IMG/VR virus record: IMGVR_UViG_3300009180_000162
Span: 1 to 29,073 of that record
DNA: 29,073 nucleotides
Strand: one strand, 5' to 3'
DNA from: a virus
Shown: positions 14,073-17,788 of the stretch, in pieces
How positions within the stretch are numbered: the first letter of the stretch is position 1
How the letters are laid out: each line of letters opens with the position of its first letter
Notes under the pieces: model-generated
The model's database searches: none
What the model saw: the letters and a program-made list of their open reading frames with translations, nothing else
Told to the model about the DNA's origin: nothing
Made by a program: the position numbers and the translations under genes

Positions 14073-14325
14073 GGTTTTGGTCCAATGCTGTAGTGGTAAT
14101 GTGGTCAACAAGGCTTTGCATCAACAAATGTCCAATGTCTATATCAGTGCCTGAAATGTAAGCATTGACTAAATCCATGCACTCGTCTTGATCTGGTTCA
14201 TAAGCCAAGCCCATTGAATCCTTAGACCCGAATTCAGCGGGGAAGTATTCCAAGAAGCAAACAAGGTCAACACCTTCAACCTCGCAAGCAAATTCAAAAA
14301 GCCCATTAGGGCATTCGGGGGTCAT
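14065..14325 (-). CDS. Hypothetical 86-aa acidic protein
   Basis: Start chosen at 14325 because the ATG overlaps the upstream stop (ATGA); longer versions would run through the preceding gene. The protein (MTPECPNGLFEFACEVEG ... DIDIGHLLMQSLVDHI) is acidic, with no recognised motif. It is the second gene after promoter copy A, so its expression should follow the operator there. Confidence 0.55.
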   Translation of the reverse strand: MTPECPNGLFEFACEVEGVDLVCFLEYFPAEFGSKDSMGLAYEPDQDECMDLVNAYISGTDIDIGHLLMQSLVDHITTTALDQNHD

Positions 14326-14480
14326 ACCGACCACCATGCGACCAACAGACAGGCCATGCCTGCGCCAATAACAAAAGCCAGCACATACCCCGCAACTTGC
14401 TCCCAAAGCGGTTCTGGTTGACCGTGGCCTTGCACATAAATGCACTCAGCGGATGTTCTAGGTGTTTGCAGATTTTTCAT
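14322..14480 (-). CDS. 52-aa single-pass membrane protein, first gene after promoter copy A
   Basis: Begins MKNLQTPRTSAECIYVQGHG; residues 30-50 (AGYVLAFVIGAGMACLLVAW) form one transmembrane helix, giving a likely cytoplasmic N-terminus. An AAGGAAATCAAA Shine-Dalgarno precedes the ATG. A longer in-frame version starts at ATG 14519, the predicted transcription start of promoter A, and would add 13 residues translated from a leaderless end through the leader hairpin. Function unknown; phage membrane proteins in this position can be superinfection-exclusion factors, but there is no direct evidence. Confidence 0.6.
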   Translation of the reverse strand: MKNLQTPRTSAECIYVQGHGQPEPLWEQVAGYVLAFVIGAGMACLLVAWWSV

Positions 14481-14499
14481 TTTGATTTCCTTAAAAAGA

Positions 14500-14516
14500 C
14501 CCCAAGAGGTTTGGGG
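14500..14516 (-). promoter_or_regulatory. 5' leader hairpin, copy A, followed by U-tract
   Basis: Read leftward: CCCCAA, loop ACCTC, TTGGGG, then TCTTTTTAAGGAAATC and the ATG at 14480. The perfect 6-bp stem plus T-run looks like a small terminator or attenuator, but it begins about 2 bases from the predicted transcription start. It could instead cap and stabilise the mRNA or act on RNA polymerase. Copy B at 17486-17502 has the same geometry with compensatory stem changes. Confidence 0.6.
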
Positions 14517-14525
14517 CATGGCTGA

Positions 14526-14553
14526 ATAATATCACAATTGTGAAGTCTGTAAA
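14526..14553 (-). promoter_or_regulatory. Promoter copy A with palindromic operator
   Basis: Read leftward: -35 TTTACA (14553-14548), 16-base spacer, -10 TATTAT (14531-14526). The spacer contains the perfect palindrome TCACAATTGTGA (14532-14543), so a bound repressor would block RNA polymerase. The -35 lies inside the 3' end of the upstream winged-helix gene, whose stop codon is part of the palindrome. An ATG begins exactly six bases after the -10. Predicted to drive the five small genes from 14480 to 13495. Confidence 0.65.
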
Positions 14554-14759
14554 GCTTTTTCCAATTTATAAAACCATTTGTCGGCTCGGCGCTGGCAGTC
14601 AATGTCAAAACCGTTCTGCCTCAACTCAGAAATGATGCTGTTTACGGCGCAGACGTTTGCTTCTTTGATGATGTCCAGGGTAGTAAATTCACCACCCTGA
14701 GACAGCAGTTCAAGCACACGGTTTAATCGGTCGCTGTTTTCAATGCTGGCTGCGTTCAT
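14532..14759 (-). CDS. Winged helix-turn-helix protein, 75 aa
   Basis: Small DNA-binding protein: NRVLELLSQGGEFTTLDIIKEANVC..AVNSIISELRQNGFDI.. followed by a Trp/Tyr wing (KWFYKLE). This is the HTH-then-wing layout of phage HTH_39-like proteins. The start at 14759 is chosen because TAGGAG lies 5 bases upstream; an ATG at 14789 has no Shine-Dalgarno. The stop codon sits inside operator A. Target unknown. It could regulate the promoter embedded in its own 3' end, although the 59-aa Cro-like protein is the better candidate for that operator. Confidence 0.7.
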   Translation of the reverse strand: MNAASIENSDRLNRVLELLSQGGEFTTLDIIKEANVCAVNSIISELRQNGFDIDCQRRADKWFYKLEKALQTSQL

Positions 14760-14798
14760 TTCAACTCCTAGAAAGGTAAATGTTTCCATATTAATGAT

Positions 14799-15269
14799 TC
14801 AAAATTTTGGCTTGTTTTGCCTGTGCCATTTCTTGTGGCAAACCTCGCAAAGCCATCTAACATCAAATGGTTTTGAGTAATCATCGTGGTGGCCTTCTAT
14901 TTTTTTAGTTGATCCACAATCAGAACAAAATTCTTGTCTCTTGATCTTTCCATCTCGAACTGCATTACCAAACAAGTAACGAGTGGCTTTTTTAAGCGGA
15001 TATCGCACGTTGTATATCTGCATGGCTTTTTTATGAGACAACTTCCCCGCTTCGGTTTTTGCATACTCTTTTTGAGCCGCAATTCGATCAGAATTTTTTG
15101 CTCTATTTGCGTCATACTTTTTAATGCGGTCAATGTTTTCATCTCGGTGTTTTTTGACTCTGGACTTAACACATTCAATGCACTTATTAAGATGTCCATC
15201 GACCATCTCGCTGTGCTTGTAATATTTATCCAGAGGCTTTTCAACTCCACAATCTCGGCAGATTTTCAT
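14799..15269 (-). CDS. HNH-type zinc protein, possible homing-like endonuclease
   Basis: 156 aa. Residues 3-36 form a treble-clef/zinc-ribbon module (CRDCGVEKPLDKYYK ... NKCIEC). A basic helical linker of about 60 residues follows, then an HNH-like module: CSDCGSTKKIEGHHDDY and LCEVCHKKWH (paired CxxC, a His-His-Asp core, final His). Such proteins are often free-standing HNH nucleases inserted in phage operons; some are packaging or recombination helpers. The ATG at 15269 is supported by AGGAG, which lies in a hairpin. It is more AT- and Lys-rich than its neighbours, consistent with an insertion between the SSB-like and winged-helix genes. Nuclease activity is inferred. Confidence 0.7.
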   Translation of the reverse strand: MKICRDCGVEKPLDKYYKHSEMVDGHLNKCIECVKSRVKKHRDENIDRIKKYDANRAKNSDRIAAQKEYAKTEAGKLSHKKAMQIYNVRYPLKKATRYLFGNAVRDGKIKRQEFCSDCGSTKKIEGHHDDYSKPFDVRWLCEVCHKKWHRQNKPKF

Positions 15270-15272
15270 GGT

Positions 15273-15290
15273 CACTCCTAAAATGGAGTG
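15273..15290 (-). promoter_or_regulatory. Hairpin over the ribosome-binding site of the HNH gene
   Basis: CACTCC and GGAGTG are perfect inverted repeats separated by six bases. In the leftward transcript the AGGAG Shine-Dalgarno for the ATG at 15269 lies in the 3' arm, so the stem would hide it. It could also be a DNA operator; no -35/-10 pair is obvious beside it. Confidence 0.45.
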
Positions 15291-15306
15291 TTCATTATAT
15301 ACCGTT

Positions 15307-15567
15307 TTAGAATGGAATATCGTCTAAGTTTGAATCTTCAAACGATGCTGACTTGCGCTCTTGGCGCTCTTCTTGCGGCCTTGGGTCATTGATGTATGCC
15401 CAACCATCCCAACCGCCCTCACGCAGTGGAATGACATCGAGCTTGAGCATCGGGCCATTCTTTGTCTCTATGATTGATCCGATACGCTGATAACGCTTTT
15501 TGCGTTCACCAACTGCGTTTGTGTACTCACCTGTAATGCACGAGATTTCTTTGCTAACTTTTGACAT
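15307..15567 (-). CDS. SSB-like protein with DDIPF C-terminal tip
   Basis: 86 aa. The body (EISCITGEYTNAVGERKKRYQRIGSIIE then GPMLKLDVIPL) looks like a short OB-fold, and the tail SNLDDIPF is the classic acidic SSB tip that recruits exonucleases, helicases and recombinases. It lies directly downstream of the exonuclease and Erf genes, forming an exonuclease-annealase-SSB recombination set. About half the length of bacterial SSB, as is usual for small phage versions. It probably coats single-stranded DNA during replication and recombination. Confidence 0.72.
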   Translation of the reverse strand: MSKVSKEISCITGEYTNAVGERKKRYQRIGSIIETKNGPMLKLDVIPLREGGWDGWAYINDPRPQEERQERKSASFEDSNLDDIPF

Positions 15568-15569
15568 TT

Positions 15570-16202
15570 TTATTCTCCAATAATGGTTTTGAGGAATTTC
15601 ACTTTGGCATCAACTTCTGCCAAAAACTTTAAGACTTCATCTTCAGCGATTTTGAGCCAATCGTCATTGCGCTCAACACGAAAAATAAACAACTGCGCTT
15701 TGCTTGGCATACGAGGATCAAAAACAACGTAATCGCACCAGGCCCGATCAGCGCAGCGCATTTGCCACTGCATCTGTGCGTAATACTTGGCATCAACTGG
15801 ATTGTTGCCTTGAGAATGAGTAAGCCAAACCTCGAGGGCAGTGCTAGATGATGGGCATTTAATCTCTACCATTCCATCACCTACCAAGCCATCGGGAGAG
15901 GCTCCAGCGGCCTCAATCGTTGGGTGAGGCATGAACCCTACTTCCTCAACCATTTGCCCCGTGTGTGCCTCATATGCTGCTCTGGCAAAGGGTTCTTGTT
16001 CAGTACCCCAGGCCATTGCTGCATTAGAAAAAGACTCAGCTCGGGTCTGGGTGATCCGTTCCAGTACCAACTGCGTCATGTAATTGGCACGGCTTGCGCT
16101 ATAACCTGTTTTAGTTTTGGCAAGCACATCAGCCAATCGGCTGGCGGTAACCTTGCCTAAACGGTTTGCAAACCAGCTGTCGGTTCCTTGTTCTTCATTC
16201 AT
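15570..16202 (-). CDS. YqaJ/lambda-exonuclease-type recombination nuclease
   Basis: 210 aa, PD-(D/E)XK fold of the YqaJ viral recombinase family. Conserved features: SWFANRLGKVTASR near the N-terminus (substrate-binding Arg/Ser), GTEQEP at residues 66-71, and the catalytic core with Asp104 (SPDGLVGD), Glu113 and Lys115 (VEIKCPS), then the helix YYAQMQWQMRCADR. It should resect double-stranded ends to give single strands for the Erf protein encoded immediately upstream. ATGA overlap with erf; a strong AAAGGAAACATC Shine-Dalgarno precedes it, identical in core to that of the gene at 17177. Confidence 0.9.
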   Translation of the reverse strand: MNEEQGTDSWFANRLGKVTASRLADVLAKTKTGYSASRANYMTQLVLERITQTRAESFSNAAMAWGTEQEPFARAAYEAHTGQMVEEVGFMPHPTIEAAGASPDGLVGDGMVEIKCPSSSTALEVWLTHSQGNNPVDAKYYAQMQWQMRCADRAWCDYVVFDPRMPSKAQLFIFRVERNDDWLKIAEDEVLKFLAEVDAKVKFLKTIIGE

Positions 16203-16756
16203 GATGTTTCCTTTTTTGCTCGTTCAATTCGTGCTTTCTTTGCTTGAATAACTTTGGCCTGTAATGCTTGGTTGCCTTGACAGGCTTCCAGTGCATCTTT
16301 GTAAACCTTTGCAAGTTCATCACTGTTACCGCTGGCCTCGATTGCAGCCAAGTGATCGGTAATATCTGGGGTCGGTACAGATTTGCGTGTAGCTGCATTT
16401 CCGTCATCGTCTTCAGGAGCAATGCCGCAAGCTGCCATCAGGCTGTAGCGCCTTGCGTATGTCAGCGCAGACCCGTATCCCTGCGGGTCTTGCTTGGATG
16501 CTGGAACATGAAGTTTGCCGCACTCCAGCATTTCTCCAGATTCATGGATAAATACAGTTTCCACCGTAACCCCAGTGGTGTCCTCGCTGGTGCGCTGTAC
16601 AAGGGCAATGCCTGCCCCGTTTAGACCCTCAATTACTGCCTCAACGCAAGCAGAAAGGTCTGCATAGCGTGATTTGAAGTGAGGGTTAGTGCTGCTTTTA
16701 AGAGCAGGGCCAAAAGCCTTTTGTGCCTGGACTAAGGCAGTTGCTATCAGTTTCAT
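16199..16756 (-). CDS. erf: Erf-family single-strand annealing recombinase
   Basis: 185 aa, similar in size to P22 Erf (204 aa). The N-terminal domain reads like the ERF family: VQAQKAFGPALKSSTNPHFK, then SRYADLSACVEAVIEGLNGAG, and QDPQGYGSALTYARRYSL. The last 60 residues are a poorly conserved Ala-rich helical tail, as in other Erf proteins. It anneals complementary strands, circularising or recombining phage DNA. ATGA overlap with both the upstream gene and the exonuclease, so stoichiometry is probably coupled. Very likely correct. Confidence 0.9.
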   Translation of the reverse strand: MKLIATALVQAQKAFGPALKSSTNPHFKSRYADLSACVEAVIEGLNGAGIALVQRTSEDTTGVTVETVFIHESGEMLECGKLHVPASKQDPQGYGSALTYARRYSLMAACGIAPEDDDGNAATRKSVPTPDITDHLAAIEASGNSDELAKVYKDALEACQGNQALQAKVIQAKKARIERAKKETS

Positions 16757-17031
16757 TCCGTGTACTCCAGTGCTTGCAGTTTGCTGATTTGATCGTTGAT
16801 TGCTTCTATTGACTTTTGAAAGTCAACCATCACCTTTTGCCTTTTTTCTTTTAGTGCAACGATCTGCTGTGCACGTGGATCGTAGTTGTCAGGCACTTCC
16901 ATCTCAATGTCTTGCTCACAGACAAAGGTGTAATGATCTGAATCATGCTGGTAAGCAAAAGGAACAAACTTGCCTTCAGTTTCCCAAACGTATTTGCAAA
17001 AATATATGTAGAGTTTGGTTTGGATTTTCAT
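16753..17031 (-). CDS. Hypothetical 92-aa protein with C-terminal coiled coil
   Basis: Start at 17031 (MKIQTKLYIYFCKYVWE); a longer frame exists but lacks a ribosome-binding site. The first 50 residues are beta-like and aromatic; the last 40 (QIVALKEKRQKVMVDFQKSI..INDQISKLQAL) are a predicted coiled coil. It ends in an ATGA overlap with erf, so it may assist recombination, but no domain is recognised. Confidence 0.6.
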   Translation of the reverse strand: MKIQTKLYIYFCKYVWETEGKFVPFAYQHDSDHYTFVCEQDIEMEVPDNYDPRAQQIVALKEKRQKVMVDFQKSIEAINDQISKLQALEYTE

Positions 17032-17039
17032 GATGTTCT

Positions 17040-17177
17040 TTAATGAGGGTTGCAATTGTTGAGAGCTGTGGTGCATTCAGCTTCCGTGCCAATGAACAAA
17101 GGCTTGACGTTGCCCATCTGAGGGACGGGGCGAACAATGTATTTGTCGTAAAAAACTGACCAAATAATTTCGTACAT
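17040..17177 (-). CDS. Hypothetical 45-aa protein
   Basis: MYEIIWSVFYDKYIVRP followed by a C-terminal TEAECTTALNNCNPH. Supported by an excellent Shine-Dalgarno (TTTAAAGGAAACATC) and by its place in the operon. No known domain. The upstream gap holds two small hairpins ending in a T-run. Confidence 0.5.
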   Translation of the reverse strand: MYEIIWSVFYDKYIVRPVPQMGNVKPLFIGTEAECTTALNNCNPH

Positions 17178-17194
17178 GATGTTTCCTTTAAAAA

Positions 17195-17224
17195 CCCTTG
17201 CGGGATTGATGGGGCCGAAGCCCC
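17195..17224 (-). terminator. UUCG hairpin plus weak hairpin and U-tract (attenuator-like)
   Basis: In the leftward transcript GGGGC-UUCG-GCCCC (17224-17211) is an extra-stable tetraloop hairpin. It is followed six bases later by CCC-GCAA-GGG and UUUUU (17204-17190). It lies six bases after the stop of the first operon gene and just before the Shine-Dalgarno of the next, so it may reduce readthrough to downstream genes or act as an RNA-processing barrier. The second stem has only 3 bp, so full termination is doubtful. Confidence 0.5.
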
Positions 17225-17229
17225 GTTGA

Positions 17230-17466
17230 TTAGTTTTGAGAAAAGTCGTATTCAAGAGCTTCAGAAAAAGAACCGTAGGCAGGGCCAAGTTCTTCGTCTT
17301 CATCTTCATGGAAATACATTTCAATGTCTTTATAGCCCTCATTGATGGCTTCTTCTGCAACTTGTTCAGCCTGTGAATAAGTTTTGCAATTGTTTGAAAT
17401 AGTGCTGCGAGATACACGATTTCCAAAGTGACGATTGCCACTAACTATCCAAAATCCGTTGTTCAT
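17230..17466 (-). CDS. Hypothetical 78-aa protein, first gene of the leftward operon
   Basis: MNNGFWIVSGNRHFGNRV with a central helix (AEQVAEEAINEGYKDIEMY) and an acidic Glu/Asp run. No recognised domain. As the first gene after promoter B it would be among the earliest products; early phage proteins here are often host-takeover or anti-defence factors, which is only a positional argument. AAGAAAG is its ribosome-binding site. Confidence 0.6.
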   Translation of the reverse strand: MNNGFWIVSGNRHFGNRVSRSTISNNCKTYSQAEQVAEEAINEGYKDIEMYFHEDEDEELGPAYGSFSEALEYDFSQN

Positions 17467-17485
17467 GATTTGCTTTCTTAAAAGA

Positions 17486-17502
17486 CCCTGAGAAGTTCAA
17501 GG
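17486..17502 (-). promoter_or_regulatory. 5' leader hairpin, copy B
   Basis: Read leftward: CCTTGA, loop ACTTC, TCAGGG, then TCTTTTAAG. The six pairs form with one G-U. Compared with copy A, two stem pairs have changed on both sides (C-G to U-A, A-U to G-C), which indicates selection for the RNA structure. The stem begins three bases from the predicted transcription start. Confidence 0.6.
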
Positions 17503-17511
17503 CATGGCTAG

Positions 17512-17539
17512 ATCATATCACGTTTGTGAAGTCTGCAAG
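17512..17539 (-). promoter_or_regulatory. Leftward early promoter (copy B) with operator
   Basis: Leftward -10 TATGAT (17517-17512), 16-base spacer and weak -35 CTTGCA (17539-17534). The operator TCACGTTTGTGA (17518-17529) fills the spacer as in copy A. An ATG begins six bases after the -10 and encodes only Met-Pro before TGA. Predicted to drive the whole recombination operon; the weak -35 suggests activation or modest strength. Confidence 0.65.
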
Positions 17540-17583
17540 CTTTTTTTAACTTATTTTTATAGGTGATTTCCCTAATCTTTACG

Positions 17584-17602
17584 ATCACAACTGTGATATA
17601 GT
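17584..17602 (+). promoter_or_regulatory. Rightward promoter of the Cro-like gene with third operator
   Basis: ATCACAACTGTGAT (17584-17597) is a near-perfect palindrome matching the operators in promoters A and B; its last base is the first base of -10 TATAGT (17597-17602). The ATG of the Cro-like gene starts six bases later, so the mRNA is predicted to be leaderless. No convincing -35 at 16-18 bases; TTTACG lies too close. Confidence 0.6.
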
Positions 17603-17608
17603 CAGCGG

Positions 17609-17788
17609 ATGGACATCTTAGAAATTGCAATCAAGGAAGCAGGCGGCACAGGTCGCTTGGCCTATCTTTTAGACTTAAAGCAGAACGTGGTGAGCAACTG
17701 GCGGCAACGTGGTGTACCAAAAGGATGGGAACAAGTGCTGCGAATTAAATTTAAAAAGCAGATTGCATCTGCTGGGAAAGTGGTATAG
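17609..17788 (+). CDS. Cro/YdaS-like HTH regulator, 59 aa
   Basis: Small helix-turn-helix protein of the P22 Cro / YdaS type: MDILEIAIKEAGGTGRLAYL, then LDLKQNVVSNWRQRGVPKGW. The helices around GRLAYLLDL and NVVSNWRQRG fit a Cro HTH, and the VSNW...GVP motif is characteristic. It sits at the divergent control region, beside three matching palindromes, so it is the prime candidate to bind them and shut down early promoters. No Shine-Dalgarno is evident; the predicted transcript begins at its ATG. Its final GTA-TAG also forms the -10 of a second promoter. No CI-type repressor partner was found. Confidence 0.78.
   Translation: MDILEIAIKEAGGTGRLAYLLDLKQNVVSNWRQRGVPKGWEQVLRIKFKKQIASAGKVV

Follow-up and report, generated by a model that had tools for sequence, protein, structure and literature searches.

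A promoter-coupled 5' hairpin leader, free in sequence and conserved in fold, recurs ahead of many genes in uncultured phages

The linear virus record IMGVR_UViG_3300009180_000162 of IMG/VR (29,073 bases, analysed whole and hereafter called the window) carries two copies of a module in which a promoter with its operator is followed by a short hairpin and a ribosome-binding site, one at the head of a leftward operon and one within it. Our analysis strongly supports selection for RNA structure at the 5' terminus of the message. The two copies are a small visible part of a large family, and the module is a general leader serving many genes, beyond one duplicated control region.

An earlier note on this DNA, made from the sequence alone, had described a duplicated promoter-operator-hairpin unit. 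The duplication is real, with coordinates about 3 nt away from those first given: positions 14494-14560 and 17480-17546 form the top direct-repeat family of the region (67 nt, 78% identical, 2986 apart). On the minus strand both copies run in the order promoter, operator, CATG, hairpin, TCTTTT and Shine-Dalgarno (SD) sequence, copy A reading AAAAAGCTTGCAGACTTCACAAACGTGATATGATCTAGCCATG-CCTTGAACTTCTCAGGG-TCTTTTAAG and copy B AAAAAGCTTTACAGACTTCACAATTGTGATATTATTCAGCCATG-CCCCAAACCTCTTGGGG-TCTTTTTAAGG. The note had this order right; its list of shared promoter parts needs correcting at the -35 element, which is weak in copy A. The stems differ at the three pairs it had described and keep their pairing: pair 3 (C-G or U-G) is a one-sided change, whereas pairs 4 (C-G or U-A) and 5 (A-U or G-C) are both two-sided. 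In each copy +1 was placed by the 6-nt spacing to the -10 box. The operator TATCACnnTTGTGA occurs three times without mismatch in the window: in the two module promoters and in the promoter of a divergent repressor-like gene. The promoter-operator of copy B overlaps the 3' end of the upstream winged helix-turn-helix gene (stop 14532-14534).

Relatives were drawn from 152 IMG/VR loci obtained by ERF and YqaJ scans. At many of these loci the leftward operon opens with the same layout (-10 box, 6 nt, then 5'-AUG-hairpin-UCUUUU-AAGGA-AUG), but the hairpin is not the same and the operator frequently differs as well. Sites were collected on a -10 box, ATG or AAT at the putative start, TCTTT and an SD sequence, pairing not being required; 237 raw anchored sites became 227 once misplaced or unrelated ones had been removed by eye, and 126 different hairpin bodies are represented. 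The hairpins are about 9-22 nt long, and length, loop and inner stem are all variable, yet the AUGCC that opens the leader and the GGUCU that follows the stem are near-invariant, even though neither was used for selection. The search of relatives with a covariance model, which the earlier note had proposed, was positive: of 25 relatives measuring 29-47 kb, 24 have one to three copies by a model of 52 diverse examples. In the window the same model marks exactly two sites (E values 1.4e-9 and 2.2e-9, the next match having 1.8), a result that is partly by construction, as both window sequences are among the 52 used for training.

The fold is conserved far beyond what shuffled sequences allow. Of the 237 raw anchored sites, 201 have a stem of at least 4 bp, whereas about 5 such stems arise when the hairpin bodies are shuffled. 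Among 27 sequences of the same length, 99.4% of the cells are paired, two-sided changes are seen at four of the six pairs, and covariation scores 0.366 compared with 0.192 for shuffled sequences (every measure being above all 500 shuffles); when the partner is slid by one base, pairing falls from 99% to 58-67%. In the 52 diverse sequences of all lengths there are 38 two-sided cells against 11.9 in shuffles (0 of 500), and pair 3 occurs as C-G, G-C, U-G, A-U and U-A with zero exceptions, these counts being of distinct sequences and not of independent events. At stem pairs 3 and 4 the distinct bodies hold 50 G-U but only 3 A-C combinations, which assigns the constraint to this strand's RNA; since G-U far exceeds A-C, a DNA-level palindrome or second operator was rejected. 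Relatives with the promoter and an unpaired stem, which the earlier note had said would count against it, yielded zero true cases in about 227 sites: a real single mismatch is present at one locus alone (L075), and the other seemingly unpaired cases are misplaced -10 boxes or unrelated sites. The note's claim that a 5' RNA structure is under selection, beyond the promoter, is thus upheld by pairing in 126 bodies, covariation above 500 of 500 shuffles and the presence of G-U rather than A-C.

The hairpin also has a fixed position in the transcript. From the -10 box to the A of the ATG there are exactly 6 nt in 209 of the 237 sites, the A being preceded by C, and this distance is the usual location of a sigma-70 start. 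We assembled an unbiased set of 83 leaders on the operon strand, picked by -35, -10 and SD only in loci retrieved by protein only. In 60 of these 83 leaders pairing is predicted to begin at +3, and in 4 at +4 (4.5 and 4.3 in shuffles). RNAalifold predicts a possible G3-U wobble beneath the stem. Structure is restricted to about -40 to -20 relative to the start codon; the hairpin window has -7.2 kcal/mol versus -1.8 in shuffles, and the SD and start codon are less structured than shuffled sequence. The hairpin-to-SD-to-AUG distance is conserved, and comparable hairpin structure is absent from the other genes of these phages. The tight hairpin start at +3 and the fixed AUGCC from +1 to +5 would fit a structure that serves transcription initiation only, an early hairpin aiding promoter escape or stopping backtracking. 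This we regard as highly unlikely, as the conserved spacing and the depletion of structure at the SD indicate a role in translation too, and similar hairpins are found between genes.

The hairpin is independent of the repressor and the operator is incidental to it, because TCACnnnnGTGA is present at just 28 of the 227 sites, the remaining sites having different symmetric sequences in the same spacer. A function of the hairpin linked to this operator was rejected on the 199 sites that lack it. In relatives the sequences between -35 and -10 include TCACnnnnGTGA, TAAGCnnGCTTA-like and TTTAGnnnnCTATA-like forms, which suggests several repressor specificities within one phage group. BLASTP clustering groups the genes behind the leaders, most of which are small and have no assigned function, into 81 families. 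The commonest hairpin is shared by 21 gene families unrelated to one another, and leaders of six lengths stand before a single family (MTDFTFSP...); the leader therefore acts as a portable part.

What such a part does can be judged by analogy, and we think it probable that it is a 5'-terminal stabilising stem-loop followed by a U-rich ribosome-loading site, the standard leader of these phages' early mRNAs. RNA polymerase would start at the A of CATG, so that the RNA begins 5'-AUG, and the nascent RNA would fold at once into a hairpin leaving two or three unpaired 5' bases. The U-rich stretch, usually UCUUUU, and the SD would come directly after it and be mostly unpaired. The hairpin would most likely shield the 5' end against pyrophosphate removal and 5'-end-dependent decay of the RNase E type, and would most likely also keep the ribosome-binding site free of upstream pairing, with ribosome loading aided by the U-rich stretch. 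The promoter operators would switch the unit off, with the hairpin itself probably not subject to regulation.

Precedents for these effects come from several systems. In E. coli, a stem-loop that leaves no more than 2-4 single-stranded 5' nucleotides stabilises RNA (PMC2948425), and the 5' stem-loops of ompA and T7 gene 10 protect independently of their sequence (PMC2254391). In the betaproteobacterium Cupriavidus necator, which offers the closest functional test within a plausible group of hosts, the T7 gene 10 stem-loop placed before the SD raised protein 1.5-3-fold and increased mRNA abundance, and an A/U-rich stretch gave a smaller effect (PMC6146998). The leaders described here share both features of the ompA and T7 gene 10 stem-loops, as the predicted +3 start leaves few unpaired 5' bases and, at the level of conservation, the 126 bodies keep the fold independently of sequence.

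Several observations weigh against a stabilising leader. The AUG occupying +1 to +3, both outer C-G pairs and the UCU behind the stem are near-invariant, and protection of a 5' end by itself needs none of these; the fixed starting AUG in particular is poorly explained. Protection would be only weak from the smallest stem-loops, which have 3-4 bp and about -4 to -5 kcal/mol. A few units of comparable make-up (hairpin, U stretch, SD) are intergenic and lack a promoter, and would lie at a 5' end only if the RNA were processed there. Finally, 5'-end-dependent decay within the true host is assumed.

A hairpin followed by U residues could instead be an intrinsic terminator, a promoter-proximal attenuator that releases an RNA of about 25-30 nt unless read-through is permitted by the conditions or by a factor. 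TCTTTT does follow the hairpin immediately at most sites, and a consensus scanner flags copy B as terminator-like. The U stretch is, however, usual yet dispensable: UCUAAC, UCUAAGG, UCUUGA, UCUAUU and UCUCUU stand behind intact hairpins, and with such broken tails the uninterrupted U tract of a terminator is lacking. A terminator score of the d'Aubenton Carafa form stays below threshold for 117 of the 118 different hairpins (-27 and -9 for the window copies), whereas it reaches +43 for a UUCG hairpin that is followed by T8 at another place in these phages. Hairpins of 9-10 nt with 3 pairs occur, and a non-exhaustive search saw no alternative antiterminator pairing. Taken together, these data make attenuation quite unlikely.

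The location at the 5' end of early operons, the repetition within them and the near-invariant AUGCC...GGUCU would also be consistent with a processive antitermination or protein-binding element of the HK022 put or nut/boxB type, recognised by RNA polymerase or by a protein of the phage and altering elongation or translation of the operon. Like the leader, put is a structured RNA close to the start of an early phage transcript. It is a specific two-stem-loop sequence acting on RNA polymerase, however, and neither put nor boxB is known to have such freedom of loop, stem and length. Here there is a single hairpin per leader, the two-stem-loop sequence of put is not conserved, loop, stem sequence and length (9-22 nt) are free, mini-hairpins such as CCGGAAACGG occur, and an Rfam search of the window matched no family. 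An element of this type is therefore unlikely. The earlier note had left open a stabilising cap, an attenuator and a put-like antiterminator; of these the cap is favoured, and the other two are disfavoured.

The 5'-terminal AUG might itself be the element, through leaderless-type ribosome capture or a minimal open reading frame tuning the downstream gene. ATG stands at +1 in 221 of the 237 raw sites, the same spacing precedes the ATG of the divergent repressor gene itself in 15 of 17 cases, and about half of the sites have a stop at codon 3. The other half have no stop at codon 3, though, the frame relative to the gene is unconserved, up to 16 sites have AAT instead, and a hairpin from the next base onwards should block initiation at a 5' AUG. 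We consider this explanation extremely improbable, and a coding leader peptide from the +1 AUG was rejected on the codon-3 stops and the unconserved frame.

Returning to the stabilising leader, the module most likely belongs mechanistically with the 5'-terminal stabilising stem-loops, by analogy of layout. As in the T7 gene 10 leader, a phage mRNA carries a 5'-terminal hairpin and behind it a U/A-rich stretch, SD and AUG (PMC2254391, PMC6146998); T7 gene 10 has a phage polymerase and a fixed sequence, whereas here host-type sigma-70 promoters precede a smaller hairpin at +3 in more than 100 versions. Stem-loops of the ompA type likewise leave at most 2-4 unpaired 5' nucleotides (PMC2948425) but belong to single host genes, in contrast to a phage-wide, reused cassette fused to the ribosome-binding site. 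The PeSLs of T4-like phages (Arbiol 2010; Comeau 2014) are reported to be small repeated promoter and stem-loop units and have been proposed to mediate gene shuffling (PMC4503421). They share with the present module a sigma-70-like early promoter joined to a stem-loop ahead of small variable genes. They are, however, described as promoter-terminator composites and belong to unrelated phages, whereas our hairpin lies in the transcribed leader and is predicted not to be an effective terminator. The SAS/ESAS elements of Cluster K mycobacteriophages, a conserved 13-bp repeat at the translation starts of some non-structural genes, half of them with inverted repeats (PMC3203893), are similarly tied to a subset of translation starts. 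They keep one 13-bp sequence; in our leaders a promoter is included, the fold is conserved with free sequence, and only CC..GGUCU and the SD are conserved.

A phage-wide, start-site-coupled and freely evolving leader cassette was not described in the literature searched, outside which lay most subscription papers and the primary PeSL papers. 5'-Terminal stem-loops have so far been studied gene by gene, and in this freshwater phage group one seems to serve as a regular component of early promoters. The more than 100 natural versions form a library for the minimal needs of a protective 5' hairpin (length, stability, unpaired 5' bases and U stretch) and offer compact promoter-leader parts for use in, for instance, Burkholderiales hosts; with the covariance model, the early promoters of uncultured phages and their start sites can be marked computationally. 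More tentatively, and with the odds rather against it, the module may be a portable insulated cassette of promoter, capped leader, U-rich loader and SD for plugging new small genes into the early region. If so, the hairpin would uncouple output from the gene behind it, its free sequence would limit recombination among copies and its short invariant ends would permit exchange.

A host-borne motif was rejected: 257 Gb of genome sequence from bacteria and archaea yielded 63 matches, against roughly 100 estimated by chance. Among the 63 only one (L200) has the promoter-hairpin layout; it lies on a phage contig within a lake Comamonadaceae metagenome-assembled genome and has a terminase unlike that of the window. 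The presence of the module on this contig indicates that the leader crosses phage lineages, and the binning with Comamonadaceae is the only hint at a host. For cultured phages the outcome was negative: among 50,697 phage records the consensus leader gave only spurious 21-base matches at the ribosome-binding-site end, and the covariance model had no match in stretches of the nearest named records MEP301, P19250A, MW202520 and MW202674.

The features of the window are collected in the table. The gene driven by copy B belongs to a family with five members behind such leaders. The YdaS/Cro-like protein encoded on the divergent strand is the candidate repressor of all three operators. Its mRNA is probably leaderless, in the manner of lambda cI from PRM, because the ATG lies exactly 6 nt past the -10 box, a spacing kept in the 15 of 17 distinct relatives mentioned above, and an SD is absent.

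Table. Positions of the module copies and associated genes in the window
Feature	Positions	Strand	Details	Family
Copy A -10 box and operator	17512..17529	-	-10 TATGAT 17517-17512, overlapping operator TATCACGTTTGTGA 17516-17529	
Copy A leader	17486..17505	-	putative +1 A at 17505 (5'-AUG); hairpin CCTTGA-ACTTC-TCAGGG 17502-17486	
Copy A ribosome-binding region	17467..17485	-	UCUUUU 17485-17480, weak SD AAGAAAG, spacer up to ATG at 17466	
Copy B promoter and operator	14526..14553	-	TTTACA-16-TATTAT; operator TATCACAATTGTGA 14530-14543	
Copy B leader	14500..14519	-	putative +1 A at 14519 (5'-AUG); hairpin CCCCAA-ACCTC-TTGGGG 14516-14500	
Copy B ribosome-binding region	14481..14499	-	UCUUUUU, SD AAGGA, spacer up to ATG at 14480	
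First gene of leftward operon	17230..17466	-	78 aa	none
ERF-type single-stranded DNA annealing protein	16199..16756	-	leftward operon	
YqaJ exonuclease	15570..16202	-	leftward operon, together with ERF	
Gene driven by copy B	14322..14480	-	MKNLQTP..., 52 aa, hydrophobic segment	
YdaS/Cro-like DNA-binding protein	17609..17788	+	59 aa, divergent strand	PF15943 (below cut-off), phrog_8008
Divergent repressor-gene promoter	17585..17608	+	third operator 17585-17598, -10 TATAGT 17597-17602, 6 nt, then ATG	

Related arrangements are found elsewhere in these phages. At 17184-17232 on the minus strand, and also in L005, L009, L038, L041, L224 and L260, a promoterless intergenic unit consists of GGGGCTTCGGCCCC, a short AT-rich spacer, the mini-hairpin CCCGCAAGGG, T(C)TTTT, SD and ATG; it is the leader in a form lacking the promoter, placed after a strong UUCG hairpin. 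On the strand opposite the operon in L006, L011, L030, L034, L041, L095 and L143, a gene beginning MNPAD.. follows GCTGACAAATGCAGTTGCCAGC, an imperfect hairpin, and GGGGCTTCGGCCCC-T6-8-SD-ATG, an arrangement that places a strong terminator-like hairpin immediately before the ribosome-binding site.

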